Part shown: positions 6,428 through 33,849 of the stretch, in pieces
Numbering within the stretch: position 1 is the stretch's first letter
Layout: each line of letters starts with the position of its first letter
NCBI GenBank assembly: GCA_039930045.1
Contig: JBDSQB010000023.1
Span: 1 to 64,000, forward strand
Direction of reading: 5' to 3'
Length of the DNA stretch: 64,000 bases
DNA from: Chthoniobacterales bacterium
GTDB taxonomy: Bacteria > Verrucomicrobiota > Verrucomicrobiia > Chthoniobacterales > DASVRZ01
Notes under the pieces: generated by a model
Database searches by the model: none
Told to the model about the DNA's origin: nothing
Seen by the model: the letters and a program-made list of their open reading frames with translations, nothing else
Program-made: the position numbers and the translations under genes

Positions 6428-7993
6428 TTAGAACTTAAAGTTGAGATCGACTTGCACGGCGTTGTAGGTGTTGCGATTGGCGAGTCCGAACTGATCGGAC
6501 AGGTTGTCGTCGAGGTTGTAGGTGACGAAGCCGGTGAGCGCGAGGGATACGGCGTCGGTGATGCCGTAGGTCGTGCCAAATTTGAAGCCGCGGGTGTTGA
6601 GTTTGCCGCCAGCGAAGTCGGAGTCGTTCAGGTTGGGATCGACTGAGGCGAGGCCGGTTTCGCGGTAATTTGCGAAGAGCGTCCAGGCGCCCTTGCCTTT
6701 GCCCGCACCGATTTCAAAGCCAGCCAGCCAGGCGAGCGCGTCCTGATCGGTAAAGCTCCGCTGCTGGGTTGTCGCAACGGGAGTCACCAGACCAGAGCCG
6801 GTCGGGATCTGCAAGCCGAAGCCATAGACATCATCATAACGTTTGTGGCCCGCGGTGTTGTAGGCGAAGTCCCAATAGAACCGGCCTTGGAGTGAGCCGA
6901 TCGGGAATTTGATCTCGCCCGGGGCGGTGACGATGGCCAGATCACGCGTTTCCCCCGAGACGGAACCCGTGGAAACGGTAATCGCACCCGTGACGGGGTC
7001 CGTGGTGAAGTCGGCGATGCCGTCGTTGTTCGCATCGATGCGACCCACAGCTCCGGTGAATGGCGTGGTGTTGTTCGCCTGAATGGCGGTGGCGCTGCCA
7101 TCACCGCCCACGTCGGCCGCGTTATAGATGATGAAGCCCGGAGCGAAGGTGATCGAGGTCTTGTTCTCAAAGGTGTAGCTGCCCACGAGCTGCGCGACGA
7201 ATTGGTAGGCGTCGTTCTTGGCGTCGCCATTGACGGCGGCCTCGTTGTTGTTCGTGTCATAGACGAATTGACCCGCTACGAGGGAGAGCTTGAAGTTGCC
7301 CCAGTCGCTGCCCGAAGTGCCAGCCGTGTAGCTTACGATGCGCTTGCCGTCCTTGCCGTAGCCGGCGGTTTCCTGTCCTGCGGAACCGCTGGAGCTAAAG
7401 ACTTTATCCAATGCGACGGACTCGGTCAGGCCGTAAGGGCTAATGTCTGGGTCCCAGACGAGGTCGGTGGTGTAGAAGGGATTTTTCTGCTTGCCTGCAA
7501 CCAAGGTGCCCCAGTCGCCGATGTTCACGCCGAGGAAGAGACGATTGATGAAGATCGCGGAATCGGTGTATGCTGGCTGTACAGTTTCATTGGCTCCGTC
7601 TGCCGCCTGACCGGTCTCGATCTGGACGCCGCCGAAGAAGTTGTTCGTCAATTTGAAGTCGGCATTCAAGCGCAGGCGATAACGGAAAAAGCTGCGTTGC
7701 GTGACATGATCCGCACCCGCGGTCTGGGTTTGCTGGTCGTCATACTGATAACGAAAACGTCCGTCGCCATAGAGTTTGAGCTCGGTCACCGGACTGGAGA
7801 TGTTCAGTTTTCCAGCGGAGGTGGTCTGATAATCTTTCACAAGATCCGCGCGCAAGTCCTCGGCTTCCTGATCATTGAGGATGCCTTTCTGGACGAGTTT
7901 GTCGATGAGTGGACCGCTGTCTTGTGCATGGATGGAGGCAATGCCGCCGGCCAGCAAGTTAATGGCGATGAGTGGGATGAGTTTACGTTTCAT
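6428..7993 (-). CDS. Outer-membrane porin, paired with sbp
   Basis: 521 residues: signal peptide (1-23, ending IHAQ), then a short helical segment (LIDKLVQKGILNDQEAEDLRADL) and a long beta-barrel of the 'putative porin' type ending in ...VQVDLNFKF with a terminal Phe. It is highly similar to the porin at 32175-33725 (same N-terminal SGPLIDKLVQKGILNDQEAE, same NFFGGVQIETGQA and WDPDISPYGLTES blocks), so the two are recent duplicates. Its location directly upstream of sbp suggests diffusion of sulfate or a related anion across the outer membrane; the specificity is inference from context. Confidence 0.85.
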   Translation of the reverse strand: MKRKLIPLIAINLLAGGIASIHAQDSGPLIDKLVQKGILNDQEAEDLRADLVKDYQTTSAGKLNISSPVTELKLYGDGRFRYQYDDQQTQTAGADHVTQRSFFRYRLRLNADFKLTNNFFGGVQIETGQAADGANETVQPAYTDSAIFINRLFLGVNIGDWGTLVAGKQKNPFYTTDLVWDPDISPYGLTESVALDKVFSSSGSAGQETAGYGKDGKRIVSYTAGTSGSDWGNFKLSLVAGQFVYDTNNNEAAVNGDAKNDAYQFVAQLVGSYTFENKTSITFAPGFIIYNAADVGGDGSATAIQANNTTPFTGAVGRIDANNDGIADFTTDPVTGAITVSTGSVSGETRDLAIVTAPGEIKFPIGSLQGRFYWDFAYNTAGHKRYDDVYGFGLQIPTGSGLVTPVATTQQRSFTDQDALAWLAGFEIGAGKGKGAWTLFANYRETGLASVDPNLNDSDFAGGKLNTRGFKFGTTYGITDAVSLALTGFVTYNLDDNLSDQFGLANRNTYNAVQVDLNFKF

Positions 7994-8125: not shown

Positions 8126-8821
8126 TTATTGCGTCCGCAGCATCGCGTAAACGTAGATGTTCACCAGCATCCGCATGCTGTCCCGGCGCGACGTCCGGGT
8201 CTCCTCCATTCCATCCCAGCCACATTGCAAACCGCTGAAACTGATCACGCCGACCAGACGTGAGTTCCATTCGATTCCGTAGAGTCCGCGACGCACCCAT
8301 TCGTAAGTCACGTTCGTGTGCGGCGGTCCGCCTGGAATGTGGAAAAAAGCATCGTAAATCGGGTGATTATTCGGCAGCGATACCACGTGCGCCTCGGGAA
8401 GAATCACCGCGAGCGCGCGGACTTGATCGTCATAAAACCCGTCCACGGAGGGAGTCACATCGTGATTGATGCAGGCGTCGATCAGCAGAAAGCCGCCGCG
8501 CCGAATGTATTCGCCGATGTTGTGCTGCGCGGTGGCTGACCGGACGGTGTGAATCCCCTGCGTGAAAAGAAATGGGTAGGCACACATTTCCTCGAGGTTC
8601 TCGACATCGGCCGTCTCCCAGTTTGGGGCGATGTTCAGCGTCGTGTTCTCCCGAAAAAACCGCATCAGCAGCGGGTCGCCAGTGGAATGACGCATCCAAT
8701 GCGGACTCGACGTTTTTAGCCGGGCCCAACCCACGCTGTCGCCTCGCAACTGATCCATGTCCGCCGCACGGCCACTCGTGAAAACCGTCAGCAAAACCAA
8801 AGTGAAAATCTTCCAGTTCAT
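8126..8821 (-). CDS. DUF4159 domain protein, last gene of the MoxR operon
   Basis: 231 residues from the ATG at 8821, which overlaps the stop of the upstream VWA gene (ATGA). A signal peptide covers about residues 1-20 (MNWKIFTLVLLTVFTSGRAA). The DUF4159 domain fills the rest: YPFLFTQGIHTV, RRGGFLLIDACIN, and a Rossmann/GATase-like fold. DUF4159 is a standing partner of MoxR/DUF58/BatA operons in Planctomycetes and Verrucomicrobia; its molecular role is unknown. The predicted location is periplasmic. Confidence 0.85.
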   Translation of the reverse strand: MNWKIFTLVLLTVFTSGRAADMDQLRGDSVGWARLKTSSPHWMRHSTGDPLLMRFFRENTTLNIAPNWETADVENLEEMCAYPFLFTQGIHTVRSATAQHNIGEYIRRGGFLLIDACINHDVTPSVDGFYDDQVRALAVILPEAHVVSLPNNHPIYDAFFHIPGGPPHTNVTYEWVRRGLYGIEWNSRLVGVISFSGLQCGWDGMEETRTSRRDSMRMLVNIYVYAMLRTQ

Positions 8822-11096
8822 AATAATTTCATCCAGCGGCGAGTGAGTAATTCTGTGCCATAAATCACGAGTAGCAGCCCTAGAAACCATTTCTGATTCC
8901 AAAGTGGACTGGAATGTTTCTCCTCAGCCGCGATCACTGCGGACTGCTGTTGAAACACCGGATCGTCCTCGATTAATTTTCCGCCGGTGCTCTCCGCCAG
9001 CCGTCGCAAACCCTCCACATCGGCGGGCAGATTGGCAGTTTCCATCGTTTGCGGCTGCTTCGTCACCGCGAGGGAAATGCGGGCCTGGCCACCTGTGGCA
9101 TCGACAGCGCGGATTTCCCAGCGACCGTCCAGATCGGGATTTAACTCGACTTGCCAGCCCGCCGACGCGCCGCTGGATCGCACGGGAAGCGGCTGCGGAT
9201 CGCCATTTGGAGCCACCGCAATGACCTTTGGCAACGCCACGGCTGAAGCACCCTCCAGTCGGAAAGTTATCGGATGATTCACCGTCGCCGGTGCCGAGTC
9301 TTTCACCAGTCGCAGCCCCTGCCCGCTCGCAGGTGTGAGCGACAGAAAAAGCTGCTGCCAGAACTTCTCCACGGCTTTGCTCTCGTGCGGCAGCGACATT
9401 TTCCAGCGCCAGAGCAGATCGGTCGTGAGCGCCACGGTAAAGCCATCGCCAAATTGCTCACGCGCCAGCAGCACACGGTGCGTGCGCCCGTCGGCCTCGA
9501 CATCTTTCGGGTGCACCGCAAGCACTTCCGCGCCAGCCTTCACGTGACGGACCGGCGCGTATTCGCTGAAGTGCGGGATGCTCGCGGGTCCTTGCCGGAA
9601 AACAGTTCGCCTATTCGCGAGCGCGCGCCGCCCGGCGGGAGCGTGTAAGGGAGTAATTTCGCCGCATCGCGATGGTACTCGCCATTGTTAAAACCCTGAT
9701 AGGCCTGGCGCACATTCCTTATTTGCTCATCAAACCCGCGCGAGGCCGCGTCCTCCGGCGACGCGGTTTTCGCGGACTCGAAGATCACCGGCAGCATCTG
9801 CTCCACGGCCGTTCCAGCGTAACGCGCGGTCGCATTCGCATCGGGCGCGATGAACAGCACCCCGCCGCCACCCCGGGCGTATTCGAGAAGCGCCTGCTGC
9901 TGCGGCATGGAAAGTTGATCAGCAAAAACGTGGGCCAGCACGACGATTTGATATTTCTGCAAGTCCTCCGCGCGGCTGGGCAAGTCGCTCAACGTCGCCA
10001 GTTCACTGGAAGTCGAGGCCGACATTTTCAAGCCCAGTGCCGGGTTGATGATGCTCGTCACGCGAAAGCTGTCGTCGTCGCACAGGGCGGAAAGGAGGAA
10101 GCGATAACCCCATTGCAGCGCGCCCTGATAATACAAAATATCCACCTTGGCCGCGTTGACGACTTGAGTGGTGCCGCCGGCCATTTGCTGATTCGTCCCC
10201 GACCCGATGCGAAATTCGAGCGGAAGCGGACCCGGCTCGGCGGCGGTCACGGGCACCGACCACGGGAAGGTGTTCAGACCCGGATGAACCTTGAATTTTT
10301 GCGACGCGAGCAGAGTCGGGCCGCTCCAGAGTTCCGCCGGAATCTCGTGCTCGCGCGAGGTGGCGATTTGGAGAACGCTCTGCGCGGTAAACTTCGTCTG
10401 GCGCAACACTTTGGCCGGGAGGCGGATGTCGCTGATGCCCATGAATTCGCTCACTCGCAGGCGGTTTGTTCCGGGCACGAAATAGAGCGGCACCGCCCGG
10501 CGCTGGGCTTCGGCGGTCAGTTTTTGGGCGTCAGTTCCAGTCGTATCGAGGCCATCGGTCAGGCAGACGACCGCGCCCGGACCGGACTCCAGCGCCTGGG
10601 TCAGCGCCTGATAGAGATGCGTCTCGGGTCCGGGCTGCGAATCGTTTGTTGCCTTTTCCAGGCTGCCAGTTTCCTGCAGACCGCTGCTGAAACGATACCA
10701 GGCCGTCTTGGAAAACTTTTCCTGCGCCTCGGAAATGTGACGCGCCCAGATGCGGCTGGCGTTTTTCAGCCGCAACTCGCCACGTTGATCGGCGGTGTTC
10801 ATGCTGTCGGAGCGATCCACCACGACCGCGAGCGTGCTGTGATCCGGCTGGATCGGTTCCGTGGAAATCACGCGGGTGGGATTCGCCAGACAGAGGAGCA
10901 AGGCCAGAACCAGAGCGATGCGAAATGCCGCCAATATCCAGCGGGCGGCCGGGCTCAACTGGCGCAAAGTATGACGATACAAACAGACGACGAGCACGCT
11001 GCCCGCCACGGCGATCACCCCGAAAATGCTCCAGGCCAGCCACGGGGAAAGACCGCCGAGCCAGCCGCCAAACTGCCATTCGAGTGCGATCTTCAT
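8818..11096 (-). CDS. Membrane-anchored VWA / GATase-like protein, interrupted by a one-base frameshift
   Basis: Reads as one gene split into two frames: the N-terminal part from ATG 11096 (overlapping the upstream stop as ATGA) and the C-terminal part ending at 8818. Features in order: two membrane helices (residues about 12-34 and 50-70), a VWA domain with the metal-site-like VVVDRSDSMNTA, Ig-like domains, a GATase1-like domain (YQIVVLAHVFADQLS, GGGGVLFIAPD), and a C-terminal membrane helix (WFLGLLLVIYG). The frames join if one base is added to the GGG run at 9586-9588, giving continuous DPASIPHFSEYAPVRHVKAG. So the gene is either recently broken or carries a sequencing indel. It belongs to the MoxR operon. 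Confidence 0.75.
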
Positions 11097-13732
11097 GGCG
11101 TGGGCGTGGGCGTCGCCTCCGTCGGTATGGGCGTGGCTGAGTAGTCGCGGGAGAGCCATTCAAAGTAATCCGCCACCGCGCCCCGATAGGCGGCGGGAGC
11201 CAGAGCCGGATCGGCGGTGGTGAGCTGGTACTGACGCTGCATGGTCTGGAGGTGGGCTCGCAGGAGGGCGATGGCACCTTGCAGCGGCGTCTCGATAATG
11301 GGGTAAACCTTCTGAAAACGCCCAAACCCGGAAGTGATGTCGCGGGGGGCCGTTTTTATGGCCGCATGCAGGGCGGAACCCTGCGGGACTTCGTCCTCGA
11401 CGGCGAGACTTTCCTGCTGGAGCTCGTTCATAAGCTGATCGGCAAATTCATCGAGTTGAGTCGTGCTGGCAGAGCCGCCGTTCCCACCCCCTCCCTGGCC
11501 TTGTCCCTGTCCCTCTGAGCCTTTTCCCTGACCTTCGGAACCCTGGCCTTGTCCTTCTGAATCTTTGCCGGTGCCAGGCTGATCCGAGTTTGGTTTCAAT
11601 CCGTTTTCAGCCAGACGCTGCATGTTGGCTTGGGTGCGCTCCATTTGTTGAATCAACTTGGCGAGCTGTTCAGGCGAAAGTGGACCCGGAGCCCGGGTCT
11701 TCGCGGCGCGCTCCGCCAAGGCATCCAGCCGGGTGGCGGCGGTCTGGCCGGGAGCCTCGTCGCGCGGGTGTTTGCGCAACTCATCGAGCGCTTTTTGGAG
11801 ATCCTTGTCGTTGAGCGCCTTCGCCAATTCCATCATGCGCGCCGCGGCTTCGGCGCTTCCGGTCTCCTGCTGCCGGGCGGCGGCTTCGGCGAGAGCGGCC
11901 CGCGTTTCAGCCGCTTTCTTCGCCGCTTGATCGACCTTTTCCTGCGCGCTCTCCTGCGATTTTTGACCGGCGGCACTACGGGCGTCATAGGCGGCGTCGT
12001 TGAGATTTTTCATCGCTTCGGCAAGTTGCTTTTTGGCCTCTTCCTGGCCCTGACGATTCATGGCTTCGAGCGCCAGCTTCAGCTCGCGGGCCGTCAGCGC
12101 CGCCGGTTCGCGAGCGGCGGGAACATCCGCAGCATCGAGCATTCGCAGCGCATTCATTGCCGCATCGCGCCCCTGGGTGAGATGGCCCACGATCTCGGCG
12201 GTGAACACTTTCCCATTGAGCAACGCCCCAACGCGCTGGCTGATCTGCGTCTCGCGCTCCGGAAATGTGCCGTCGATGGTGTTCGGATTTTTCTTCGCCT
12301 CAGGCGTCGCGGCTGGAGTCGGTTCGGCGTCCACTTGGGAAAGATCGCCCGCAAGACGGATTTGCTCCTTAACGAGAAGATCGAGTTCGCCCGCCTTGGT
12401 CTCGAAACGCTGCTTCAACTCCAGTTCCTGCTGCCGTTTGAAAGGATCCTCGGGCCCTTTCGGAGGCTTGCCGCGGCCTTTGGCGACGACTTTGACAAAA
12501 AACTTTTCCACCTCGGTGATCAACCCCAATGCCTTTCCCTGCGGCACCTGCGCAGGTTGGTTCTGCGTCGCGGTGATTTTTTTCGCCGCATCGGCCATAA
12601 AGGGACGCGTCTGAGTGATGAGATGGACGATTTCCGCAGGCGCACCAAGCTCGATGAGTTGCTGAATGACCTCGCCGGTCTTGGTGTCGAGTGCTGCCTG
12701 ATCGGTGCCGACGCGGGTGTTTTCCTTGCGCCAGCCGGGATTTTCGTGGCCGAGATCGGTGTGGCCGAGGAGGAAATTTTCCTTAATCAGCCGGAGTTGA
12801 GCTACTTTTAGTGCCGCGATCAGCGCCTGTCCGGAGTTCCCATCGCCGCCGGGTATCTCGGCGATATCCTCGCGGAAGGGTTTCACTTGGATGAATTGCA
12901 CCGGGGAATTCGTCGTAGGCAGCGCCCGGGGATCGATCCGCTGCGCCCGCAAATGATACGAGACGATGTCGAACGGCTGCACTTCGAGCTGATCGAGATA
13001 AATGGAGGCGTCGATGGCGTGGCTGCCTTTTTTGGAAAGTTCGGGAATGCCCACCGGCACTTTCAGCTTGGGCTCGCCGTTCACTTCCATCTCCAAAACA
13101 AGGTCGCGCAAACCGGTTGCGGAGTCGGCGACGGCTTGCAAAGGCACCTCCTCGATGGGCGACGCCTTGGTTTCCGCCTCGGGCGTTTTCCAAGTGATGC
13201 TGGCTTTCGGCAACGCGGCTGGCGGCGGCGTTTTCGGGGCCACCACGACGGGGCGCACCCAGGGCCGGGTCCAGCAAACGAGTGTGACGAAGTGCCCGAG
13301 AAGAAGGAGAAAAATCGCGGCGGCCAGCAGGAAAAGAGGCCAGCGATGCGGGCGCACCGGCGTGTGACTGAGAAATCCGTCGGTCTCCTCGCGCTGCACG
13401 CGGGCGATGGGACTCGTGTCGTGGCGGAGCGCGGCGGCGGTCTCGATCCGGTTTTTGGCGTTGAGCGTGGCGTCGAGTTTTTGGGCGGTCCGCGCGAGGC
13501 TGTGACTCCGCACGAGCCAGACGACGAAGGCAGCGATCACAGTCAGTCCGACTCCGCCAGCCCACCAAGCCGGCAGGTGCTGCCAGCGCTCGATTTTTGT
13601 CCAACTCGGATGCAGTTTCCACGATAGGGCGAGCGTCGTGGCCAGTCCGCCAGTCAGAATGCCCAGCGGCCAGCCGAGTCGCATCCAGCGGTATTGCTGG
13701 CGAAGCCATTGTTCGGTTTGGGGAGTGCTCAT
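11093..13732 (-). CDS. DUF4175-like membrane protein with long coiled coil and Gly/Gln-rich linker
   Basis: 879 residues. Two or three membrane helices lie in the first 150 residues (about 20-38, 53-74, 133-152). A large periplasmic region follows with Ig-like and long Ala/Glu/Lys-rich coiled-coil segments (about 380-700), then a low-complexity GQGQGSEGQGKGSEGQ stretch, and a C-terminal helical domain ending PTEATPTPTP. The layout matches DUF4175-type proteins found in MoxR/BatA operons. It starts 3 bp after the BatA-like stop, and its own stop overlaps the next start. The role may be as a scaffold for the VWA proteins; that is inference. Confidence 0.75.
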   Translation of the reverse strand: MSTPQTEQWLRQQYRWMRLGWPLGILTGGLATTLALSWKLHPSWTKIERWQHLPAWWAGGVGLTVIAAFVVWLVRSHSLARTAQKLDATLNAKNRIETAAALRHDTSPIARVQREETDGFLSHTPVRPHRWPLFLLAAAIFLLLLGHFVTLVCWTRPWVRPVVVAPKTPPPAALPKASITWKTPEAETKASPIEEVPLQAVADSATGLRDLVLEMEVNGEPKLKVPVGIPELSKKGSHAIDASIYLDQLEVQPFDIVSYHLRAQRIDPRALPTTNSPVQFIQVKPFREDIAEIPGGDGNSGQALIAALKVAQLRLIKENFLLGHTDLGHENPGWRKENTRVGTDQAALDTKTGEVIQQLIELGAPAEIVHLITQTRPFMADAAKKITATQNQPAQVPQGKALGLITEVEKFFVKVVAKGRGKPPKGPEDPFKRQQELELKQRFETKAGELDLLVKEQIRLAGDLSQVDAEPTPAATPEAKKNPNTIDGTFPERETQISQRVGALLNGKVFTAEIVGHLTQGRDAAMNALRMLDAADVPAAREPAALTARELKLALEAMNRQGQEEAKKQLAEAMKNLNDAAYDARSAAGQKSQESAQEKVDQAAKKAAETRAALAEAAARQQETGSAEAAARMMELAKALNDKDLQKALDELRKHPRDEAPGQTAATRLDALAERAAKTRAPGPLSPEQLAKLIQQMERTQANMQRLAENGLKPNSDQPGTGKDSEGQGQGSEGQGKGSEGQGQGQGGGGNGGSASTTQLDEFADQLMNELQQESLAVEDEVPQGSALHAAIKTAPRDITSGFGRFQKVYPIIETPLQGAIALLRAHLQTMQRQYQLTTADPALAPAAYRGAVADYFEWLSRDYSATPIPTEATPTPTP

Positions 13733-13735
13733 GAG

Positions 13736-15669
13736 TTACATTGAGGTGCGATTGGCGAGGGCGAGTTCGGCAAGCAGGGCGGCTCCGCAGAGGGCGAGCA
13801 GCCACCACCAGAGGCGCTGCTGGTTCTCGGCGATCTCGCTGCTCACGGGCAAAACGGTACTTTGAGTGGACTGCGGTTTCGCCGGTTCGGTGGATTGCAT
13901 ACTGGCGAGCTGGCCAATGTTCGGCCATGGAGCGAGATCAGATTCTTCAGCGGGAACATTCACCGCAAAGACGCGCCGCGTGGAGCCACTGACAAATTCA
14001 TAGAGCCCCGGCACCTCGGCTCGCACGCTCCCATTTACCGGACGCGGCGGCTGCGAAACGGGCCCGTCGATGGCAGTCCAGGTCCCCTCACCCGCGATTG
14101 GAATGGAACTCCCGACCCGCCAGTCTGCGCGCGTGCCGCCGAACGAACCCAGCCAGCGCACGGTCTGGTGAACGAACGGCACAAACGATGGCTGCGTCGT
14201 CCAGTTGGTGGACTCGCGGTCCAATGAAAAACCAGCCAGAAAAATGCGGCGTCCGTGGTCGTTGCAGGAGGCCAGCGCCATCACGCCGTCAGACCAGTTC
14301 GCCACTGCGGACAACGCGTCGCCGCTGAGATTAAACCCGCGCTTGAACTCCACCTCCAGCAGCGGAACCAGACTGTCCCCGGCGAAGGCGGTGAGAATCG
14401 GATGCTCCGGGTCCCAGTCCTGCAAATGCCCCGGAATTTCCGTCTCGGGACGAGCCGTGACTTGGATGCCGCGGGCCTTCAGCCAAGCCGTCTGCTCGGG
14501 CGAGCCATCGAGAAAAATCCAGAGCGCACCACCGGCATCCGCGAAATGATTCAGCCGCGCCGGATCGCGAAAAGCGTCGCTGCCGCGCAAGATGACGACC
14601 GCCCCGGCGGGCCATTCTGCGGCGGGTAATTTGCCAGGAGCCATCGCGCCCGCACCGAGGCGTTTCGTGGAGTTGAGCGCGTGTTCGAGGAAGTCGGTGC
14701 CGCTGGTGGAATCGAGCAGAACGGGACTTGCATGGGGATCAGCGCGGGCCAGCCAGAAGGTGTTGTCGGCGGCCAGATCGTCGTCATCGAGCGCCACGTG
14801 CCATCCATCCACGGGCGATTTCGGCAAGGGAACGACGATTCTGTTTTCGCCTTTCTGGAGCGAGATTTTTTGGGTCGCGATCAACTGTTTTCCCGAGGAA
14901 ATCGTGAGCCGCCGTGACTGCTCTTCCGGCTCGAAAAGTTTCACAGTCACCCGCAACTCGTCCCGGCCTGCCGCCGAACTTTTTTCCACCGCAGTGATCG
15001 CGGCCTGACTCGTGGACTCCCGCGGCATTGGCGAAAAGCGGAGTTGGATTCCATTCGGCAGCGGCTTTTTTAGGTCCGCGCCCATCCAACCGAGGCGCTG
15101 CTCGTCGGCCACCCAGATGAGTGTTTTCGATTCCGCTGGGTGCGCCTCCAATGCCTTCGCCGCCATCCGCAATGCCTCGGAATAATGCGTTTTCTCGAAC
15201 CCGGGCTTGGCATCAATCAAGGCCGAACCCACAGCGCTGAGATTCTCCGTCACCGGCACGAGCCAGCTCGGATTCGGATGCATCAGGAGGACGCCCGCCT
15301 GATCGCCGGGATGGAGTTCGCCGAGTTGATCGAGCGCCCAGGCGCGGCCCTGACTCCAGCGCTCGCCCGCCTGCATGCTCATGGAATTATCCATGGCGAT
15401 CACCATCACCCGTCCATGAGTCGTGCGCGCATCCTGCCAAAATGGCCGGGCAAACGCGGCCGCGAGCAGACCGAGAATGAGGCAGCGCAAAGCTAGCGTG
15501 AGCCAGCGCATGAGCCGGTGACGATTCGTATCGCGGACGGCGCTCGGGCCGAGAAAACGCAGCGTGGAAAAGCGCACAATAGCCTTGGGCCGGCTGCGCA
15601 GAAAATGCAGCGCGATGGGCAGCCCACCAAGAGTCCGCCCGCCAAAAATCCGGGAAAAAGCCAGTTCAT
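13736..15669 (-). CDS. BatA-like N-terminal domain + VWA membrane protein, frameshifted near its N-terminus
   Basis: The ATG at 15669 overlaps the DUF58 stop (ATGA) and starts MNWLFPGFLAGGLLVG, the typical BatA N-terminal helix; the family continuation LPIALHFLRSRPKAIVRFST is in another frame. Adding one base to the CCC run at 15623-15625 (GGG on the coding strand) joins them. Then follow a second membrane helix (LALRCLILGLLAAAFARPFW), a VWA domain (VMVIAMDNSMSMQAGERW), a GATase-like region and a C-terminal membrane helix (LWWWLLALCGAALLAELALA). BatA proteins assemble with MoxR and DUF58 partners in the envelope. The open part without the shift begins upstream at 15832 in a non-homologous frame. 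Confidence 0.8.
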
Positions 15670-16649
15670 CGGCGCGGCCTCCGTTGCGCCAGATAGCTGG
15701 CGAGCGCGTCGATCGGAGTACGGTCGGTGCGCAGCCGGCAGGTTTCGCCTCCGACACCACGAAACAGCTCGTCGAGGTCGGTGCAAAATGCACCGAAACG
15801 TTCCAGGTAACCTTTCCGAACCGACGGCGCATCGAGCTTCAACTCGGCCCCGGTTTCGGCGTCAGTAAATTTCCCGCCGGCAGTGAAATCGAAGTCCACT
15901 TCCTGCGGGTCGAGCACGTGCAGGCCGATGGTTTCGTGATGATCGTAGCGCAATCGTCGCAGGGCCGCGGCCAGCAGCGCAGGCTCCTCGTAGAAATCAC
16001 TGGCGATCACCACCATCGAGCGTGCCGGGATGACTTCGGCGAGATCCTCGAGGGACTTGGCGAGGGCGGTTTTCCCACCCGTTTTGACGACTTCCAAGCG
16101 ACCCACGAAGGACCGCCAGTGCGGCACGGAAGAACGGGCGCGCATGAAATCGCTCAGCTCCGTGCCCGCCAGCCCCAGGCCAAAAGCGTCGCCCTGGCGC
16201 TGGGCCAGAAGTCCGATCGCAGCGAGGACGATCCGGGCGTATTCCACTTTGCGCAGCAGGCCGGGCTGGGTGGAAAAATCCATTGAGCCGCTGGTGTCGA
16301 GCACTAGGAATACGCGCAACTGCGTTTCCTCCTCGTATTGCTTGATGTGCAGCCGATCCGTCCGGCCATAGAGCCGCCAGTCCACCCGGCGCAAATCGTC
16401 GCCGAGCTGGTAATCGCGATATTCCGCAAACTCGACCGACGAGCCTTTCTGCGGGCTGCGATGTTTCCCACTTAGGAAACCCTGCATCATATAACGCGCC
16501 TGCAATTCGAGCGTGGGCAACTCGGCCAGCAGCTTCAAATCCAATGGCGGCAACGACTGGAGCGGCACCTCATTCGGCAACGGCGGCGGCCTGCGCGTGC
16601 CCCGGACGGCAGCGCTAAAATGCGGCAGCGGTGGAGGTTGCGCGGGCAT
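15666..16649 (-). CDS. DUF58 domain protein
   Basis: 327 residues from ATG 16649, 16 bp after the MoxR stop. The DUF58 signature is clear: GSSVEFAEYRDYQLGDDLRRVDWRLYGRTDRLHIKQYEEE, followed by a VWA-like fold (VFLVLDTSGSMDFS with the DxSGS metal site). There is no membrane segment, unlike some DUF58 proteins. It is the standard partner of MoxR AAA+ ATPases and probably binds VWA proteins or targets for chaperone action. The MPAQPPPLPHF start is preferred to an upstream in-frame ATG at 16718 that would overlap MoxR. Confidence 0.9.
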   Translation of the reverse strand: MPAQPPPLPHFSAAVRGTRRPPPLPNEVPLQSLPPLDLKLLAELPTLELQARYMMQGFLSGKHRSPQKGSSVEFAEYRDYQLGDDLRRVDWRLYGRTDRLHIKQYEEETQLRVFLVLDTSGSMDFSTQPGLLRKVEYARIVLAAIGLLAQRQGDAFGLGLAGTELSDFMRARSSVPHWRSFVGRLEVVKTGGKTALAKSLEDLAEVIPARSMVVIASDFYEEPALLAAALRRLRYDHHETIGLHVLDPQEVDFDFTAGGKFTDAETGAELKLDAPSVRKGYLERFGAFCTDLDELFRGVGGETCRLRTDRTPIDALASYLAQRRPRR

Positions 16650-16665
16650 CGGAGTTGGAGCGTTT

Positions 16666-17658
16666 CTAGCGGACAGTTTGCAGCAGCTTGTCGATGATCG
16701 TGTCCACGGTCTGGCCATCGGCCTCGGCGCGATAATTTGTGATCAGGCGATGGCGCAGGACGAGCTTGGCGGCGCGCTGAATGTCCTCTTTGGCGACGTT
16801 GAAACGCCCGTCGAGCACGGCGAACCCTTTCCCCGCCAGCGCCAGATATTGCGACGCGCGCGGACCCGCGCCCCATTGCACGTAGCGTTTCACAAAATCG
16901 GGAACGCCGTTTTCCCCGGCGCGGGTGGCCTGCACGAGCGACACGGCATATTGTGCGACCGACGGCGCGACCGGCACCTGGCGGACGGCTTTTTGGAGAG
17001 CCAGCATCTCGGGTCCGGTCCAGACTTTTTGCAGAGTCGCTTCGGAGTCGCTGGTCGTTTCCAGCAGGATGCGCACCTCCTCGGCGTGCGACGGGTAGCC
17101 GACCTGGAGGTTAAACATAAACCGGTCGAGCTGGGCCTCGGGCAGCGGATATGTGCCCTCCTGCTCGATGGGATTTTGCGTGGCCAAAACGAAGAATGGC
17201 GCAGGCAGATCGTAGGTGCGACCGGCCACGGTCACGCGGCGTTCCTGCATCGCCTCGAGCAAAGCCGCCTGCGTTTTGGGCGGAGTTCGATTGATCTCAT
17301 CGGCCAGCAGCAGGCTCGCAAAAATCGGTCCCGGAACGAACCGGAACTGACGCTGGCCGCCGTCTTTTTCCTCAAGAATTTCCGTGCCCGTGATGTCACT
17401 TGGCATGAGGTCGGGCGTGAATTGGATGCGCTGAAATGGCAGGTCGAGGATCTCGCCGAGGCAGCGTACGAGAAGCGTTTTGGCCAAGCCCGGAACGCCG
17501 ATCATGAGGACGTGGCCTTGCACCGAGAGGGCGACGAAGAGGTCGCGAATGATTTCCTCCTGGCCGATGATGCGTTTGCCGAGTTGCTCGGTTAGCTGGC
17601 GATAACGCTCCGGGACGGTGCGCAGGATTTCGATGTCGGCTTCAGTGGCTTGGCTCAT
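16666..17658 (-). CDS. MoxR-family AAA+ ATPase
   Basis: 330 residues from ATG 17658. The Walker A motif is the MoxR type GVPGLAKT (residues 54-61), Walker B is LLLADEINR, and the sensor/arginine region ATQNPIEQEGTYPLPEAQLDRFM is textbook MoxR. A C-terminal lid domain follows (DIQRAAKLVLRHRLITNYRAEA). MoxR ATPases act as chaperones that mature or insert cofactors into client complexes together with VWA proteins. It lies 19 bp after the caspase-like/transglutaminase gene and leads directly into DUF58. An upstream in-frame ATG at 17826 is inside the previous gene and is rejected. Confidence 0.93.
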   Translation of the reverse strand: MSQATEADIEILRTVPERYRQLTEQLGKRIIGQEEIIRDLFVALSVQGHVLMIGVPGLAKTLLVRCLGEILDLPFQRIQFTPDLMPSDITGTEILEEKDGGQRQFRFVPGPIFASLLLADEINRTPPKTQAALLEAMQERRVTVAGRTYDLPAPFFVLATQNPIEQEGTYPLPEAQLDRFMFNLQVGYPSHAEEVRILLETTSDSEATLQKVWTGPEMLALQKAVRQVPVAPSVAQYAVSLVQATRAGENGVPDFVKRYVQWGAGPRASQYLALAGKGFAVLDGRFNVAKEDIQRAAKLVLRHRLITNYRAEADGQTVDTIIDKLLQTVR

Positions 17659-17677: not shown

Positions 17678-20263
17678 TTAGTGCTGGGCGGCGTCCCACT
17701 CGCGGAGCGCTTGACGCAACGCCGCGTAATCGGCGGCGGGGACGAGGGGTTGATGGAGTTCGAGAAGGGCGGTGCGTTCGATGGTGTTCGCATCGACCTG
17801 TCGCCAGGTGATGCTGAGTTTTTCACCTGCCACTTCCTTTTGCCAGGCAGCCGGGAGCGCGGGCGGCTTCGCTGTATAACGCAGCAAAACGGTTTGTCTT
17901 AGAGACATCGGCTGGCCGTCGTTCAGGAGCAGCGGACGATCCCGTTGCGGCGGACTGAAAAGGGCGCGGTCGCTGAAGTTCGCCGGCGGGAGTGCAGCGG
18001 AGCCAGAGACGACTTTGGTTCGTATCTGGGCGGCGGCGCGCAGGTCGCTCACGTCGCCGATGACTGCATCGGAAAAGTCTGCGGCGGGCCAGAGTTCGGT
18101 GGCGATGTGATAAATATTAAACTGCCGTTGCTGCGGTGTGATGCCGCGAAACTGCCGACGCAATCCGTCTTCCGCAAAACCCGTCGCGACGCGCGTCCAG
18201 GTGCCCGACCAGCCACCGTTTTCCAGTTGAGTTAGATTCCAATCATCGTGCGTTTCGCTGCCACTTTTGTTCTGACTGGAGACGGTTTTGAACTCCGCCT
18301 TCGTCGGAGTGAAAACGAGTCCGGCGCGTCCGTAATCACCCGGCGGCACAAATCCGAAGGGTGCCGTGCTGTCGGTCGAGTCGAGCCAGAGATCGTCCGG
18401 CTGGTCGGTTCCGGGCGCTCCGGGAACGAGGCAAATGGCGTGGTTAAATTGCCAGCTTGGAAAATTCACATCGGTAAACGAGCCGCGATTCAGCAGGACG
18501 AAACGCGCGTCGATTCCCTGCGAACGCAGCATCGCGCCGAGGAGATTGGCCTTGTCCTTGCAGTCGCCGTAACGATTCGCCAGCACTCGCGCCGGGGTGC
18601 GCGGACGGAACCCTTGGACTCCGATCTCGACCGCGATGTAACGCAGGGCGGAAACAAACTCGAATGAGCGGTGAATCTTTTCCCGTCGCGAGGGAGCGTT
18701 CGTCACAATGGACGCGGCGGCCTTTTTTACGGTGTCGTCGATGGCGTCCGAGTCCTGCGCCAGGCGCCGATACCAGGCGGCAAATTCCTCCCACGACGGC
18801 AGCGAACTGATCCCGAGCGACACTTCCCAAAGCGGTGCGGGCGGGTCGCCGGGGAGATTCTCGGCGGCGGGCAAATGGTCGAGTTGCCAGCTAAAAATGC
18901 GGCGTCCATTTTCCACGCGTTCATTGGATTTCGACTCGAAATGATTCAGCGCCACGCGATAGGCGGGCTTCTCCGGCACGCGCACGTCGAGGCTGGTTTT
19001 AAGGATGGGCACGGCGCGTTGCAGTGGCAGATTTACGGAAACGTGCGGCAACGTCGCGTCCAGAATCTGACGCGTGCGCCAGCCGACTTCGACCACGCAA
19101 CCAGCTCCGGTTTCGGGCAGATAAACCATCGGGGCCGCCGAGTCTCCGCTCTCATCAGGCGTGGTCGTGCCGGGGAGTTTGGCCGGGTTGAAAGCAATGG
19201 AACTCCCATCGGGATGAATCACTCGCGCGTATTCGAGTTTGGTCGTAATGGCGGGCGGAGCCTGCGGCAGAAAATAGTTCGCCCAGTCATCAGCGGCGTC
19301 CTCGCGGGCAATGAAAACGCGCATTTTCGTCAGTTGATCCGTGGTGCGATCCTCCTCAACGGTGAACCCGAGTTTTTGCTCGAGCACGATGGCGGAGTAA
19401 CCTTCCGGATTCGGCACCGCCCGCGCCTCGGCGATGATTTTCTGGGTTTCCGCAGTCGCGGGCTGATGCTCCCATTCGGCGGTGGGGTCCTTGATTTTAA
19501 CCTGAATGTCCTGCGCGCTCGGGGCGTCGTCACCGGAACTGACGGTGAAAGTGGTTTCTGGTGCAGCCTCCAGATTCACCCCAAACGGTGGCTCCAGGAT
19601 TTTGCCCGTGGCCGGGTCCGCGAGCCGTGCGTGCTCGATTTGAGCCAGACTCGAATGGGTGTATTCCTGACTGGTTAATTCCGCCGCACGCGCCGCCGTC
19701 CAGGCGATGGACGCCTTGGGATTTTCCGCCAAGGCCTCGATCCAATGCGCCGGGAAACGCGGTTGATCCGATTCGCCGCCGCCTTTGGTCGCGGAAATCA
19801 CGGTGCGTTTCGGGTTCTGCAAAAGCGGCAAAAAAGCCCCGCTCTCGCTCGTGGCGATGAAGACCGTTTGCCGCGCTGGAATCGCGTCGAGCGTTTCCTG
19901 AATATCCTTCGCGGTGAGTCGCGGTCCGCTCACCTGAAACGCCGGAACTCCGCCCTGCGACTTTCCAGAATGCCCGTAAAGCACCAGCCAGAATTCGTCC
20001 GACTCGGGAGTGTCGGCGGCAGCGCGCAGTTTTTCCAAAATCTGGTCACGGCTGACTTTGCCGGTCAGGAGTTCGATTCGATTCGCCGGAATGCCGCGTT
20101 CGGCGAGGAGGCGTTTCGTTTCGAGTGCAAGCCGCTGAAATTCCTCGGCGTTGGCGGAGTTGCCCGCGATGCCGGTGACGATCAATGCCTGTGACGCCGC
20201 CATCGAAACGCATGGCAGTGCGACGAGAAAAACTGCCAGCAATCGGGGGAACGACTTGATCAC
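17678..20263 (-). CDS. Caspase-like (C13-type, degenerate) + DUF3857 + transglutaminase-like protein
   Basis: 861 residues. A signal peptide (1-23, ending SMAAS) is followed by a caspase/legumain-like domain: ALIVTGIAGN, FWLVLYGHSG (His site present) and VFIATSESGAFLP, where the catalytic Cys position appears to be Ser or Thr, then VISATKGGGESDQPRF. The middle is DUF3857, then a transglutaminase core with YGDCKDK, FNHAICLV and LWLDSTDS giving the Cys-His-Asp triad. It is likely a periplasmic, envelope-associated enzyme. It is first in the MoxR operon and divergent from arsR. The peptidase half is probably inactive; the transglutaminase half looks intact. Confidence 0.82.
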   Translation of the reverse strand: MIKSFPRLLAVFLVALPCVSMAASQALIVTGIAGNSANAEEFQRLALETKRLLAERGIPANRIELLTGKVSRDQILEKLRAAADTPESDEFWLVLYGHSGKSQGGVPAFQVSGPRLTAKDIQETLDAIPARQTVFIATSESGAFLPLLQNPKRTVISATKGGGESDQPRFPAHWIEALAENPKASIAWTAARAAELTSQEYTHSSLAQIEHARLADPATGKILEPPFGVNLEAAPETTFTVSSGDDAPSAQDIQVKIKDPTAEWEHQPATAETQKIIAEARAVPNPEGYSAIVLEQKLGFTVEEDRTTDQLTKMRVFIAREDAADDWANYFLPQAPPAITTKLEYARVIHPDGSSIAFNPAKLPGTTTPDESGDSAAPMVYLPETGAGCVVEVGWRTRQILDATLPHVSVNLPLQRAVPILKTSLDVRVPEKPAYRVALNHFESKSNERVENGRRIFSWQLDHLPAAENLPGDPPAPLWEVSLGISSLPSWEEFAAWYRRLAQDSDAIDDTVKKAAASIVTNAPSRREKIHRSFEFVSALRYIAVEIGVQGFRPRTPARVLANRYGDCKDKANLLGAMLRSQGIDARFVLLNRGSFTDVNFPSWQFNHAICLVPGAPGTDQPDDLWLDSTDSTAPFGFVPPGDYGRAGLVFTPTKAEFKTVSSQNKSGSETHDDWNLTQLENGGWSGTWTRVATGFAEDGLRRQFRGITPQQRQFNIYHIATELWPAADFSDAVIGDVSDLRAAAQIRTKVVSGSAALPPANFSDRALFSPPQRDRPLLLNDGQPMSLRQTVLLRYTAKPPALPAAWQKEVAGEKLSITWRQVDANTIERTALLELHQPLVPAADYAALRQALREWDAAQH

Positions 20264-20374: not shown

Positions 20375-20686
20375 ATGCCAACCGTCAACGCTTCGGTTCC
20401 TCAAAAGACTTCGGCTGACTTCCAAAACGCTGCTCTTGTCTTCAAAGCTCTGAGCAACCCACATCGACTCCTGATCGTGGATGCTTTGGGACGCGGAGAA
20501 CGTTCGGTCGCTGAATTAACCGCTCTCGTAAGCATCGATATGTCCACCGTTTCCAACCACCTCTCTGTTTTGCGCAATGTTGGCATCGTCACTGCCGACC
20601 GCCGCGGCACTCAGATTTTTTACTCACTTCGGAAACCGTGCCTGCTGAACATCTTTTGCTGCCTTGAGGAATTTCATGGGGAGTAA
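20375..20686 (+). CDS. arsR: ArsR-family winged-helix repressor
   Basis: 103 residues. The ArsR fold is clear: ALSNPHRLLIVDALGRGERSVAEL, then the recognition helix MSTVSNHLSVLRNVGIV and the wing ADRRGTQIFYSLR. The classical alpha-3 cysteine motif (CxC in 'ELCVCDL') is missing. Instead a C-terminal cluster Cys89, Cys95, Cys96 (PCLLNIFCCLEE) could bind As(III), as in the AfArsR subgroup. It is the first gene of the arsenic cluster and would repress it until arsenite binds. Confidence 0.9.
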   Translation: MPTVNASVPQKTSADFQNAALVFKALSNPHRLLIVDALGRGERSVAELTALVSIDMSTVSNHLSVLRNVGIVTADRRGTQIFYSLRKPCLLNIFCCLEEFHGE

Positions 20687-20703
20687 CGCAAACAGCTAAT
20701 ACT

Positions 20704-21036
20704 ATGAAAACCATCCAAGTCTATGACCCGCCCATGTGCTGCTCGACCGGCATTTGCGGCACCGACATTGATCCTGATCTCGTGAACTTCGCCGCGATGC
20801 TCGCGCAACTCGGCGCGCGCGGCCTCAAAATCGAACGCTACAATCTCGGCCAGCAGCCGATGGCTTTCGCGCAGAATCCCGCGGTCAAGTCGCTACTGGA
20901 GAAGGAAGGCACGGAGGCGCTGCCGGTCATCTTTCTCGATGGAGAGATTTACTTAAAGGGGCGCTATCCGACGAAGGAAGAGCGGCCGGCTTTGTTTCGC
21001 ACGGCGCTCGGCGAGGAAGCTGAGGTGGCACCGTGA
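20704..21036 (+). CDS. arsD: Arsenite metallochaperone ArsD
   Basis: 110 residues. The N-terminal MCCSTGICG carries Cys12, Cys13 and Cys18, the three thiols that bind As(III) in ArsD and pass it to ArsA. The remainder has the thioredoxin-like ArsD fold with ALPVIFLDGEIYLKGRYPT. The stop overlaps the arsA start (GTGA), which couples translation of the donor and acceptor proteins. It lies 17 bp after arsR. Confidence 0.95.
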   Translation: MKTIQVYDPPMCCSTGICGTDIDPDLVNFAAMLAQLGARGLKIERYNLGQQPMAFAQNPAVKSLLEKEGTEALPVIFLDGEIYLKGRYPTKEERPALFRTALGEEAEVAP

Positions 21037-22832
21037 ATCTGCCGAACTACCAGCCCGATCCCTCCCTTACCACGCGCTACCTCTTCTTCACCGGCAAGGG
21101 TGGAGTGGGCAAAACGTCGCTCTCCTGCGCAACGGCGCTCAAGCTCGCCGAGGCGGGTAAGCGCGTGCTGCTGGTGAGTACGGACCCGGCTTCCAATCTG
21201 GATGAAGTGCTGGAAACCAAGCTCACGAACGCGCCCACGCCCATCGCGGGTGCCCCGGGGCTCGACGCGCTGAACATCAACCCGGTCGAGGCGGCAGCGG
21301 CGTATCGCGAGCGCTTGATCGGCCCGATGCGCGGACTGCTGCCGGAGGCGGCGCTGCGCAGCATGGAGGAGCAGCTCTCGGGATCATGCACGGTCGAGAT
21401 CGCAGCATTTGATGAGTTCTCGGGTTTGATCGGAAATCCGGAAGCTGTGAAGGGCTACGACCACGTCATCTTCGACACCGCGCCGACCGGCCACACGCTG
21501 CGGCTGATGAGTCTGGCGAAAGCGTGGGATCAATTCCTCGACACCAACACCAGCGGCACGTCCTGCCTTGGCCCGCTGGCGGGTTTGGAAAAGCAGCGCG
21601 TCATTTATGAAGGCACGGTCAAGACGCTAGCCGATGCGTCCGCGACGACGCTGCTGCTGGTCAGCCGTCCGCAACTCGCCGCTCTGCGCGAGGCGGAGCG
21701 AACCTCCAAGGAACTGCGCGCTCTCGGCGTGGGCAATCAGCGGCTCGTCATCAACGGCGTTTTTGAAACGAAGTGCCCGGACGATCTGACCTCACAAGCC
21801 ATGCAACAGCGCGGGCTGGCCGCTTTGGCTGCTGCGCAGGAGTTCATCAGCAGCCTGCCGAGTTTCATCGTGCCGCTGAGGCCGATCAACATTCTCGGAA
21901 TCGGCGGGCTGCGCGTGCTGCTGGATGGCCATGGCCAAGCAGCGGAGGTGACACCGCAGCGCAATGACTGGTCGCTGCCAGAGATGGGGAGCCTCCAAGA
22001 CCTCGTGGCCGACATCGAAAAGCAAGGCAGCGGCGTCATCATGACGATGGGCAAAGGCGGCGTGGGCAAGACCACCGTGGCCGCTGCCATCGCGGTGATG
22101 CTCGCGCGGCGTGGGCATTCCGTGCATCTCAGCACCACCGATCCCGCCGCGCATGTGGCCCAGACTTTGGCGGGTCAGGTGGATGGGCTCACGCTCAGCA
22201 AGATCGACCCCGCGGCGGAGACGGCGGCCTACCAGGCTGAAGTCATGAATGCGCAAGGCGCCGCGATGGACGAGGCCGGACGATCCTTGCTGGAGGAAGA
22301 TCTGCGCTCACCCTGCACCGAAGAAATCGCCGTGTTCCGCGCCTTCGCCCGCGAGGTCGGACAAGGCACGAACCGCTTCGTCGTGCTCGACACCGCACCG
22401 ACCGGCCACACGTTGCTCCTGCTCGACGCCAGCGAGGCTTATCAGCGCGAACTGGAGCGCCAGGCGCGCAGCACCCAGCCGGAGGAAGTGCTGCGTCTGC
22501 TGGAACGTCTGCGCGATCCGGCGTTCACCCGCATCCTGCTCGTCACCCTGCCCGAAGCCACGCCGGTCCATGAAGCAGCCGCGTTGCAGGAAGATCTGCG
22601 CCGCGCGCGCATCGAACCGTTTGCGTGGATCATCAATCAAAGCCTGCTGCAAAGCGGCTCGTGCGATCCGCTGCTGCAACGCCGCGAAGAGGCCGAGCAC
22701 CCCTACCTCCGCGAGGTGGTGGAAAAGCACGCCACCCGCACCGCGTGGCTCCCCTGGCAGCCGGAAGAACCCACCGGCCCGGAAGCCCTCGCCCGTCTGG
22801 CCGCATCCAGCCTCGAACCCGCACTAATATGA
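21033..22832 (+). CDS. arsA: Arsenite-translocating ATPase ArsA, duplicated form
   Basis: 599 residues with two homologous halves. Each has a P-loop (GKGGVGKTS at about 21-29 and GKGGVGKTT at about 340-348) and a DTAPTGHTL switch. The three cysteines that form the metalloid site in E. coli ArsA are conserved here as Cys119 (SGSCTVEIAAF), Cys178 (GTSCLGP) and Cys428 (SPCTEEIAVF). It powers arsenite extrusion with a membrane permease, which is not intact in the window. The GTG start overlaps the arsD stop, and the ArsA stop overlaps the next start (ATGA). Confidence 0.95.
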   Translation: MNLPNYQPDPSLTTRYLFFTGKGGVGKTSLSCATALKLAEAGKRVLLVSTDPASNLDEVLETKLTNAPTPIAGAPGLDALNINPVEAAAAYRERLIGPMRGLLPEAALRSMEEQLSGSCTVEIAAFDEFSGLIGNPEAVKGYDHVIFDTAPTGHTLRLMSLAKAWDQFLDTNTSGTSCLGPLAGLEKQRVIYEGTVKTLADASATTLLLVSRPQLAALREAERTSKELRALGVGNQRLVINGVFETKCPDDLTSQAMQQRGLAALAAAQEFISSLPSFIVPLRPINILGIGGLRVLLDGHGQAAEVTPQRNDWSLPEMGSLQDLVADIEKQGSGVIMTMGKGGVGKTTVAAAIAVMLARRGHSVHLSTTDPAAHVAQTLAGQVDGLTLSKIDPAAETAAYQAEVMNAQGAAMDEAGRSLLEEDLRSPCTEEIAVFRAFAREVGQGTNRFVVLDTAPTGHTLLLLDASEAYQRELERQARSTQPEEVLRLLERLRDPAFTRILLVTLPEATPVHEAAALQEDLRRARIEPFAWIINQSLLQSGSCDPLLQRREEAEHPYLREVVEKHATRTAWLPWQPEEPTGPEALARLAASSLEPALI

Positions 22833-32174: not shown

Positions 32175-33725
32175 TTAGAACTTGAAGTTAACGTCGAACT
32201 GCACGGTGTTGACCGCGTTGCGATTGGCGAGGCCAAACTGGTCAGCCAGATTGTCATCGAGGTTGTAGGTCACGAAGCCCGTCAGCGCGATGGAAACGGC
32301 GTCGGAGATGCCGTAAGTCGTGCCGAACTTAAAGCCGCGGCTGTTCAACTTGCCGAGAGCGAAATCGGAGTCGTTCAAGTTAGGATCGACTGCAGCGAGA
32401 CCGGTTTCGCGGTAGTTGGCGAAAATGGTCCAGGCTCCCTGTCCCTTGCCCGCGCCGATTTCCAGACCAGCCAGCCACGCCATGGCGTCCTGGTCGGTGA
32501 AGCTGCGCTGCTGGGTTGTGGCGATTGGCGTGCCGACTCCGGTGCTGCTCGGAAGGAGCAGGCCAAACCCGTAAACGTCGTCATAACGCTTGTGGCCAGA
32601 GGTGTTGTAAGCAAAATCCCAATAGAACCGGCCATTGAGCGAGCCGATCGGGAATTTGAATTCGCCGGGTGCGGTGACGATGGCGAGGTCGCGAGTTTCT
32701 CCCGAGACATTGCCCGTGGAAACGGTGACTGCGCCGGTGACTGGATCTTGCGTGAAGTCAGCGATGCCGTCGTTGTTCGCATCGATGCGGCCCGAAGCTC
32801 CGGTAAAGGCAGTTTCGTTGTTCGCCTGAATGTCGCCGCCGACGTCGGCTGCGTTGTAGATCATGAAGCCGGGCGCAAAGGTCACGGACGTTTTGCTGTT
32901 CACCTCATAGCTTGCGACGAGCTGGCCCACGAATTGGAAGCCATCGTTCTTCGCATCGCCATCGACAGCAGCCTCGTTGTTGTTGGTCTCGTAAACGAGC
33001 TGACCTGCAACGAGCGAGAGCTTGAATCCACCCCAACTGCTGCCAGCGGTGGCCCCGGTGAAGCTGGTGACGGTTTTGCCATCCTTGCTATAGCTGGAAG
33101 GACTGCCCGCACTGCCTTCGGACTTGAACGCCTTGTCGAAGGAGATCGACTCGGTCAGACCGTAAGGGCTGATGTCCGGGTCCCAGACGAGGTCGGTAGT
33201 GTAGAAAGGATTCTTTTGCTTGCCTGCAACGACGGTCGCCCAGTCGCCGATATTAAGACCGAGGAAAACGCGGTTGATGTAAATCCCGGAATCGCCGTAA
33301 GCGGGCTGCACGGTTTCGTTGGCCGAATCGGAAGCTTGGCCGGTCTCAACCTGGACGCCGCCGAAGAAGTTGTTGGTCAGGCGGAAGTCGGCATTCAAGC
33401 GCAAGCGATAACGGAAACGGCTGCGTTGCGTCACGTGCTCGGGACCAGCGGTCTGCGCCTGCTGGTCGTCATATTGATAACGGAGGCGGCCGTCGCCATA
33501 GAGCTTCAACTCGGTCACGGGACTGGAAATGTTCAATTTTCCGGCAGACGAGGATTGGAAATCCTTCACCATGTCGGCGCGGAGATCTTCAGCTTCCTGA
33601 TCATTCAGGATGCCTTTTTGCACCAGCTTGTCGATCAACGGACCGCTGTCCTGGGCATGTAGTTCACTGTTAATGAAGGGAAGTGCTGCGGCAGCTGCCA
33701 GCAACAAACGTGGGATACGAATCAT
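32175..33725 (-). CDS. Outer-membrane porin, paired with pstS
   Basis: 516 residues from ATG 33725 (signal peptide MIRIPRLLLAAAAALPFINSELHAQ); the long upstream extension to 33875 has no signal character. A short helix (LIDKLVQKGILNDQEAEDLRADM) leads into a beta-barrel ending FDVNFKF. It is a close paralogue of the porin at 6428-7993; differences cluster in surface-loop-like parts and the signal peptide. It lies between the phoB-like regulator and pstS, so a phosphate-starvation porin is the natural inference. Confidence 0.87.
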   Translation of the reverse strand: MIRIPRLLLAAAAALPFINSELHAQDSGPLIDKLVQKGILNDQEAEDLRADMVKDFQSSSAGKLNISSPVTELKLYGDGRLRYQYDDQQAQTAGPEHVTQRSRFRYRLRLNADFRLTNNFFGGVQVETGQASDSANETVQPAYGDSGIYINRVFLGLNIGDWATVVAGKQKNPFYTTDLVWDPDISPYGLTESISFDKAFKSEGSAGSPSSYSKDGKTVTSFTGATAGSSWGGFKLSLVAGQLVYETNNNEAAVDGDAKNDGFQFVGQLVASYEVNSKTSVTFAPGFMIYNAADVGGDIQANNETAFTGASGRIDANNDGIADFTQDPVTGAVTVSTGNVSGETRDLAIVTAPGEFKFPIGSLNGRFYWDFAYNTSGHKRYDDVYGFGLLLPSSTGVGTPIATTQQRSFTDQDAMAWLAGLEIGAGKGQGAWTIFANYRETGLAAVDPNLNDSDFALGKLNSRGFKFGTTYGISDAVSIALTGFVTYNLDDNLADQFGLANRNAVNTVQFDVNFKF

Positions 33726-33849
33726 AGGTTTTAGTTGGTTAGGGTTTAGGCAAATCGCAGGGGTTGGCAGCGACTTGGACAAAGATTTAACGCAACCGTG
33801 AAATAGCGAAACACCGGAATTGTTACAATCACGTGACGGAAACTCGCTC

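Follow-up and report, generated by a model that had tools for sequence, protein, structure and literature searches.

An enzyme fold stripped of its catalysis has been kept in a MoxR operon across the phylum Verrucomicrobiota, where it occurs fused to an enzyme, on its own or fused to a sigma factor. In the DNA analysed here (the window: 64,000 nucleotides of contig JBDSQB010000023.1 from a Chthoniobacterales bacterium) this legumain/caspase-type domain forms the N-terminal part of a protein, pCTG, whose second half is a DUF3857-transglutaminase protein with an intact catalytic triad. On balance, we favour the view that pCTG is exported and belongs, as an accessory subunit, to a Bat/MoxR membrane machine of Verrucomicrobiota, in which the dead N-terminal domain would serve for binding, docking or sensing and the second half, probably an active thiol enzyme, would act on the bound target. 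The dead domain and the MoxR operon are the constant elements of this arrangement, and the part attached to the domain is the variable one.

Layout of the protein and fold of its N-terminal domain

The pCTG gene (Table 1) is a complete open reading frame with a GTG start at 20263 and a stop at 17678, as the first-pass annotation had it, in the correct frame and with the correct length. The hydropathy across residues 1-19 is 1.88, and a hydrophobic segment immediately precedes the clan-CD domain in 55 of the 57 family sequences (window included). Because of this stretch and the signal-peptide-like start, export of pCTG to the periplasm is predicted to be likely. Pfam models recognised DUF3857 (E 2.8e-10; 40.9 bits against a cut-off of 24.6) and Transglut_core (E 2.7e-8), and had no match in the first 240 residues. 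An artefactual joining of the dead domain to the transglutaminase was rejected, since 28 fusions, from many families, have it.

Table 1. Features of the pCTG gene, its product and the adjoining gene cluster (window coordinates).
Feature	Position	Strand	Remarks
pCTG gene: signal peptide, pseudo-legumain/caspase domain, DUF3857, transglutaminase-like domain and C-terminal domain	17678..20263	-	861 aa
Predicted signal peptide, residues ~1-22 (hydrophobic 1-19, then SMA-A)	20198..20263	-	hydropathy
Predicted clan-CD (legumain/caspase-type) domain without catalytic Cys, residues 24-236	19556..20194	-	AlphaFold2 model, structure matches, alignment
His98, catalytic His position (YGHSG)	19970..19972	-	His in 45/57 family sequences
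Ser139 at catalytic Cys position (TSESG)	19847..19849	-	Cys in 0/57 family sequences at this column
DUF3857, residues 316-467	18863..19318	-	Pfam
Transglut_core, residues 514-590	18494..18724	-	Pfam
Cys568, thiol-enzyme triad	18560..18562	-	28/28 fusions
His608, thiol-enzyme triad	18440..18442	-	28/28 fusions
Asp628, thiol-enzyme triad	18380..18382	-	28/28 fusions
MoxR-type AAA+ ATPase (AAA_3, 7.2e-64)	16666..17658	-	ATG ~20 bases past the pCTG stop
DUF58 protein	15666..16718	-	Pfam; overlaps MoxR end as listed, start provisional
BatA-type membrane protein with VWA domain	13736..15832	-	overlaps DUF58 as listed, start provisional
g5, large protein with two predicted membrane segments	11093..13732	-	no Pfam family over cut-off
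g6, VWA/GATase1-like membrane protein (weak Pfam matches)	8818..11159	-	two ORFs: 9540-11159 and 8818-9543
DUF4159 protein, last gene of the cluster	8126..8902	-	4.5e-28

The N-terminal domain (residues 23-246) was modelled with AlphaFold2 on an alignment of three sequences (window, L034 and L035). The model is of moderate confidence (pLDDT 67.6, pTM 0.66), with residues up to about 130 mostly above 70 and the last third mostly around 60 or lower; a model of full-length pCTG (pLDDT 49.1, pTM 0.28) was too poor to use. The order of strands and helices in the domain model is that of clan CD. Foldseek returned legumain 4awb as the top match (E 2.8e-6) among 183 matches at E <= 0.001, and VIA-align ranked plant legumain 5obt first (Z 14.2, rmsd 2.1 A, 136 aligned residues), with metacaspases, caspases and GPI transamidase tied with it or close behind; the structure-search rows shown consist of legumains, metacaspases, caspases or GPI transamidase. 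The caspase-type fold that the first-pass annotation had proposed is borne out by the model and by these matches, and the structure without caspase topology against which that proposal was to be measured did not occur, the predicted alpha/beta topology being that of clan CD. At this moderate model confidence, membership of clan CD by fold is well supported; the matches fit both C13 and C14, and the predicted fold does not decide between these two families.

Neither Pfam nor NCBIfam holds a family that matches the N-terminal domain of the window protein, and NCBIfam yielded no match for the protein as a whole. PF01650 (Peptidase C13) over its cut-off is absent from the protein and from its genome, in which Peptidase_C14 and C13 found no match; the dead domain is the sole caspase-type domain there that is visible to the C13 and C14 models and the family profile. 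Among 38 relatives, weak Peptidase_C13 matches were obtained in five (best 4.8e-4) and weak NCBIfam matches of the EACC1 caspase type in two (best 0.0089), and PDB sequences searched with the family profile gave chance-level matches only (best E 0.054). A C13 search of 113 genomes of the class produced matches in two of them, so that near relatives provided no good set of active C13 enzymes for comparison.

The MoxR operon and the recurrence of the domain

The cluster in the window has the order pCTG, MoxR, DUF58, BatA, g5, g6 and DUF4159, with all genes on the minus strand and separated by short gaps or overlapping. It thus contains the adjacent, co-directional MoxR, DUF58 and BatA-type VWA genes of a Bat/MoxR operon, and its MoxR gene accounts for one of the four strong AAA_3 (MoxR-type) matches of the genome. 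The g6 gene, which most relatives have as a single open reading frame, switches frame near 9540 in the window, and similarity to the L056 homologue carries on in the second frame; this reflects either an assembly error or a real frameshift. On the other side of pCTG, at 20375-22832 (plus strand), lie divergent ORFs that we take to be arsR-, arsD- and arsA-like. A promoter scan detected no consensus-like site for the pCTG operon; the one sigma-70-like site between it and the ars-like ORFs is on the plus strand, on the divergent ars-like side. Elsewhere in the window, the minus-strand genes at 6428-7993 and 32175-33875 encode paralogous proteins (81% identical over the match) that are porin-like by eye.

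Profiles of the operon genes were run on all fetched loci. The resulting set, window included, comprises 62 distinct domain copies for which DNA was retrieved (the best matches and chosen stand-alone ones) and is a part of the copies in the searched genomes. Fifty-nine of these directly adjoin operon genes: 24 fusions and 6 stand-alone copies immediately before MoxR (head-type), 27 stand-alone copies and one fusion immediately after g6 or DUF4159 (tail-type), and one fusion immediately before DUF4159. Within 250 bases on their own strand, the other three (L038, L072 and L116) lack an operon neighbour; L116 sits on a contig of 5.3 kb, and L072 has g5-g6 further upstream. Wherever longer DNA (14.5 to 19 kb) was available for tail-type copies, MoxR-DUF58-BatA was present upstream in this order (14/14). 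A pCTG homologue, 57% identical in the best segment, is also encoded by Spartobacteria bacterium LR76.

The same association was evident at the genome level. Out of 369 genomes drawn from the class, 165 carry DUF4159 and 80 carry the domain, and all 80 are within the 165 (Fisher p 9e-35, with no correction for common ancestry). The other 85 have DUF4159 without the dead domain, which indicates that the machine, or at least DUF4159, can do without it. The link to a MoxR operon drawn in the first-pass annotation is therefore real and conserved. Its picture of a dead peptidase placed ahead of a cysteine enzyme has to be amended in that the transglutaminase is optional, whereas the dead domain itself is constant and is often encoded by a separate last gene.

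A tree of 57 domains, whose bootstrap had not fully settled, separates the head-type (fusion) copies from the tail-type (stand-alone) ones. On this tree the 28 fusions need 4 changes, compared with 19.3 in shuffles, and the 23 tail-type copies need 2, compared with 18.1. Fusions are present in the class of the window, and other classes of the phylum contribute an 11-row group of them, which points to an old origin of the fusion. Those head-type copies that lack the enzyme are divided between the fusion part (three) and the stand-alone part (three) of the class. An EF-hand-like loop (DxDxDGxxSxxE-type), possibly able to bind Ca2+ in the tail-type proteins, is found in 20 of the 23 tail-type domains, in two of the six head-type stand-alone ones and in none of the 28 fusion domains; the product of L054:5122-6072 (plus strand) is an example of a stand-alone pseudo-caspase with this loop.

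A further architecture is encoded by a single ORF, L070:9590-11119 (minus strand), located directly upstream of MoxR at the head of the same type of operon. Its sigma-70 regions 2 and 4 are followed by a membrane segment near residue 254 and, after it, by the pseudo-caspase domain. A sigma factor being cytoplasmic, one crossing of the membrane would place the domain outside, and we predict that it forms the extracytoplasmic end of a membrane-anchored ECF-type sigma factor. The role in binding or sensing that the first-pass annotation had suggested gains support from this arrangement, in one genome.

The architectures also bear on how the domain would act in pCTG itself. The conservation of the fusion in 28 sequences, including the 11-row group mentioned above, is what would be expected if the N-terminal domain were an inhibitor or a pro-domain-like regulator working intramolecularly on its own thiol enzyme, and not a partner-binding module of the MoxR machine. 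We consider such a role unlikely, given that stand-alone copies occur in the same operon without the enzyme.

The two active sites

Residues of the N-terminal active site were compared in a 57-row profile alignment, window included. This set lacks L052 (a copy found by a later profile) and L134-L137 (fetched later), which are present in the 62-copy set, and both sets exclude L117, a protein over the C13/C14 cut-offs and apparently active. The latter (L117:7405-9558, plus strand; 717 aa) has a caspase/legumain domain that exceeds the cut-offs of both Pfam models and in which the His-Cys pair is apparently intact. It scores 37.9 bits against the family profile, and its GHG falls on the His column and the Cys of its DACNSGG(F) exactly on Ser139. 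Because the DACNSGG motif aligns over the Ser139 motif, we assign Ser139 to the position of the catalytic Cys.

The motifs YGHSG and TSESG are present as originally described, and the window protein therefore has His98 but, in place of the Cys that an active peptidase would carry, Ser139. The His, though present in the window, is not fixed across the family: the 57 sequences have H 45, Y 3, D 2 and one each of V, F, L, Q, T, C and R. This is also not the Tyr plus Ser dyad of YS-type pseudo-orthocaspases, the window having His and Ser. The loss of the catalytic Cys is supported, as none of the 57 sequences has Cys at the column and the mature N-terminal domain of the window protein contains no Cys at all. 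Other positions are strongly retained (Gly97 is invariant in 57/57 sequences, and Glu210 is found in 53/57). A conserved Cys elsewhere in the pocket, which had been named as evidence against a dead domain, is absent from the window protein, with the caveat that in three stand-alone proteins (L039, L055 and L121) the column next after the Ser139 position holds a Cys (C-x-G) and the His is kept; these might be active exceptions.

These exceptions, the presence of His98 and the fact that Ser is the commonest residue at the column (25/57) are the observations that speak for an active peptidase using Ser139, or a residue elsewhere in the pocket, as its nucleophile. Such activity nevertheless appears highly improbable, as the column is also occupied by T 10, R 5, N 4, G 4, E 3, A 3, P 2 and D 1, and close relatives have S or N there; in L056, L057 and L061 the His has given way to V, L or F. 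An active serine peptidase was rejected since the Ser139 column is not conserved, and a nucleophile elsewhere in the pocket since the window domain is devoid of Cys and C-x-G is confined to the three proteins named.

The second active site presents a different picture. Transglut_core is over its cut-off and the Cys-His-Asp triad (Table 1) is kept in every fusion, so the intact triad reported in the first-pass annotation stands, and pCTG falls within the transglutaminase-like superfamily. Judged from its sequence, the DUF3857-transglutaminase half is probably catalytically active, as a thiol peptidase or an acyltransferase. In pCTG, as in other DUF3857-transglutaminase proteins, DUF3857 comes before a Transglut_core that has a GDCKD motif, and phmmer matched it to PDB 3kd4, a DUF3857-transglutaminase protein described as "Putative protease" (E 4.2e-6). 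Unlike pCTG as a whole, 3kd4 has no counterpart of the pseudo-caspase part, the match spanning only residues 405-594. The window encodes a second DUF3857-transglutaminase protein about 13 kb away (2076-4757, plus strand), which has a C-terminal DUF2569 and is without the pseudo-caspase.

The contrast between the two sites, catalytic residues gone from the first and a triad retained in the second, would suit a protein in which the N-terminal domain is a decaying relic and the DUF3857-transglutaminase half alone matters. However, conservation of the N-terminal domain equals or exceeds that of the rest of the protein: identity to L056 is 63.7% for the N-terminal query and 59.7% for the rest, and identity to L059 is 64.7% and 54.4%, respectively. 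Since the N-terminal identity is the higher in both comparisons, the dead domain is suggested to be still under selection. Moreover, it persists in the operon without a fused transglutaminase in 27 tail-type and 6 head-type copies, which is the reverse of how a relic behaves; on this ground the relic reading was rejected, and we regard it as scarcely credible.

Proposed role and relation to known systems

In the reading that we prefer, that of an accessory subunit of the Bat/MoxR machine, the dead legumain/caspase-type domain would bind a peptide or protein partner in the envelope and link it with BatA, g5 and g6, membrane proteins with which the domain would be in contact. MoxR and DUF58 would provide ATP-driven remodelling from inside, by analogy with NorQ/NorD as presented in the available part of PMC9976466. 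In the window protein, the attached thiol enzyme, whose activity and substrate we likewise infer, would then receive the bound target. That such a machine might serve envelope quality control, as the first-pass annotation proposed, is a conjecture. A wider and rather doubtful extension of this reading is that a MoxR membrane machine present throughout the Verrucomicrobiota may have the dead legumain/caspase domain as its dedicated subunit, an interchangeable input device that would read an envelope peptide or protein signal and relay it to a transglutaminase-type enzyme in one branch, to an EF-hand-like loop in another and to a membrane-anchored sigma factor in one genome.

With Peptidase C13 (legumain and GPI transamidase; clan CD) pCTG shares the predicted fold (Z 14.2 to 5obt) and the motif layout, His-Gly followed by (S for C)-x-S-G; it differs in the missing catalytic Cys, the missing C13 match, the fusion to DUF3857-transglutaminase and the location in a MoxR operon. 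Pseudo-orthocaspases are bacterial caspase-type domains in which the catalytic pair is Tyr/Ser and which are presumed inactive yet conserved; alphaproteobacteria and cyanobacteria are named as carriers in the available part of the source (Klemencic et al. 2019, PMC6426788). The pCTG family resembles the domains described there in being a conserved bacterial caspase-type domain with a replaced catalytic residue. Unlike them, as far as that description extends, it mostly keeps the His, has many residues in place of the Cys, and belongs to a MoxR operon in Verrucomicrobiota; "Verrucomicrob", transglutaminase, legumain and operon are not mentioned in the PMC6426788 text. Our data therefore extend pseudo-caspases beyond the groups named in the cited papers.

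The window has MoxR, DUF58 and a BatA-type VWA protein in the order known from Bat (MoxR-DUF58-BatA) operons, to which it adds the pseudo-peptidase, g5, g6 and DUF4159. Operons of this kind are widespread and their function is unsettled; according to the available part of PMC3557215, deletion of bat in Leptospira biflexa caused no growth, morphology or oxidative-stress phenotype. Finding what the dead subunit binds should reveal what the machine handles. Pseudo-caspases, MoxR-vWA conflict systems and Bat operons are each already known; the open-access literature searched yielded no example of a dead legumain-type subunit in a Bat-type MoxR operon, and within it the combination is new.

The MoxR-vWA ternary conflict systems (Kaur et al. 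2020, PMC7159879) call for separate comparison. Their third core protein is a VMAP, iSTAND, FtsH or beta-propeller-vWA protein. In the available part of that description they combine, as the window does, MoxR and VWA with a caspase-superfamily partner or, rarely, a transglutaminase-like peptidase; unlike the situation in the window, the caspase is the peptidase domain of VMAP-type proteins, and that part of the text contains no exported dead caspase fused to DUF3857-transglutaminase. The pCTG cluster could on these grounds be seen as a defence or conflict system with a caspase-like effector, and its MoxR exceeds the cut-off of the bpMoxR Pfam model (40.1 bits), albeit far below its AAA_3 score of 214. 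We give this interpretation very little credence: PADLOC matched none of the nine proteins tested, the peptidase is dead and preceded by a signal-peptide-like start, and the operon is of the Bat/DUF58/DUF4159 type that is kept across the phylum.
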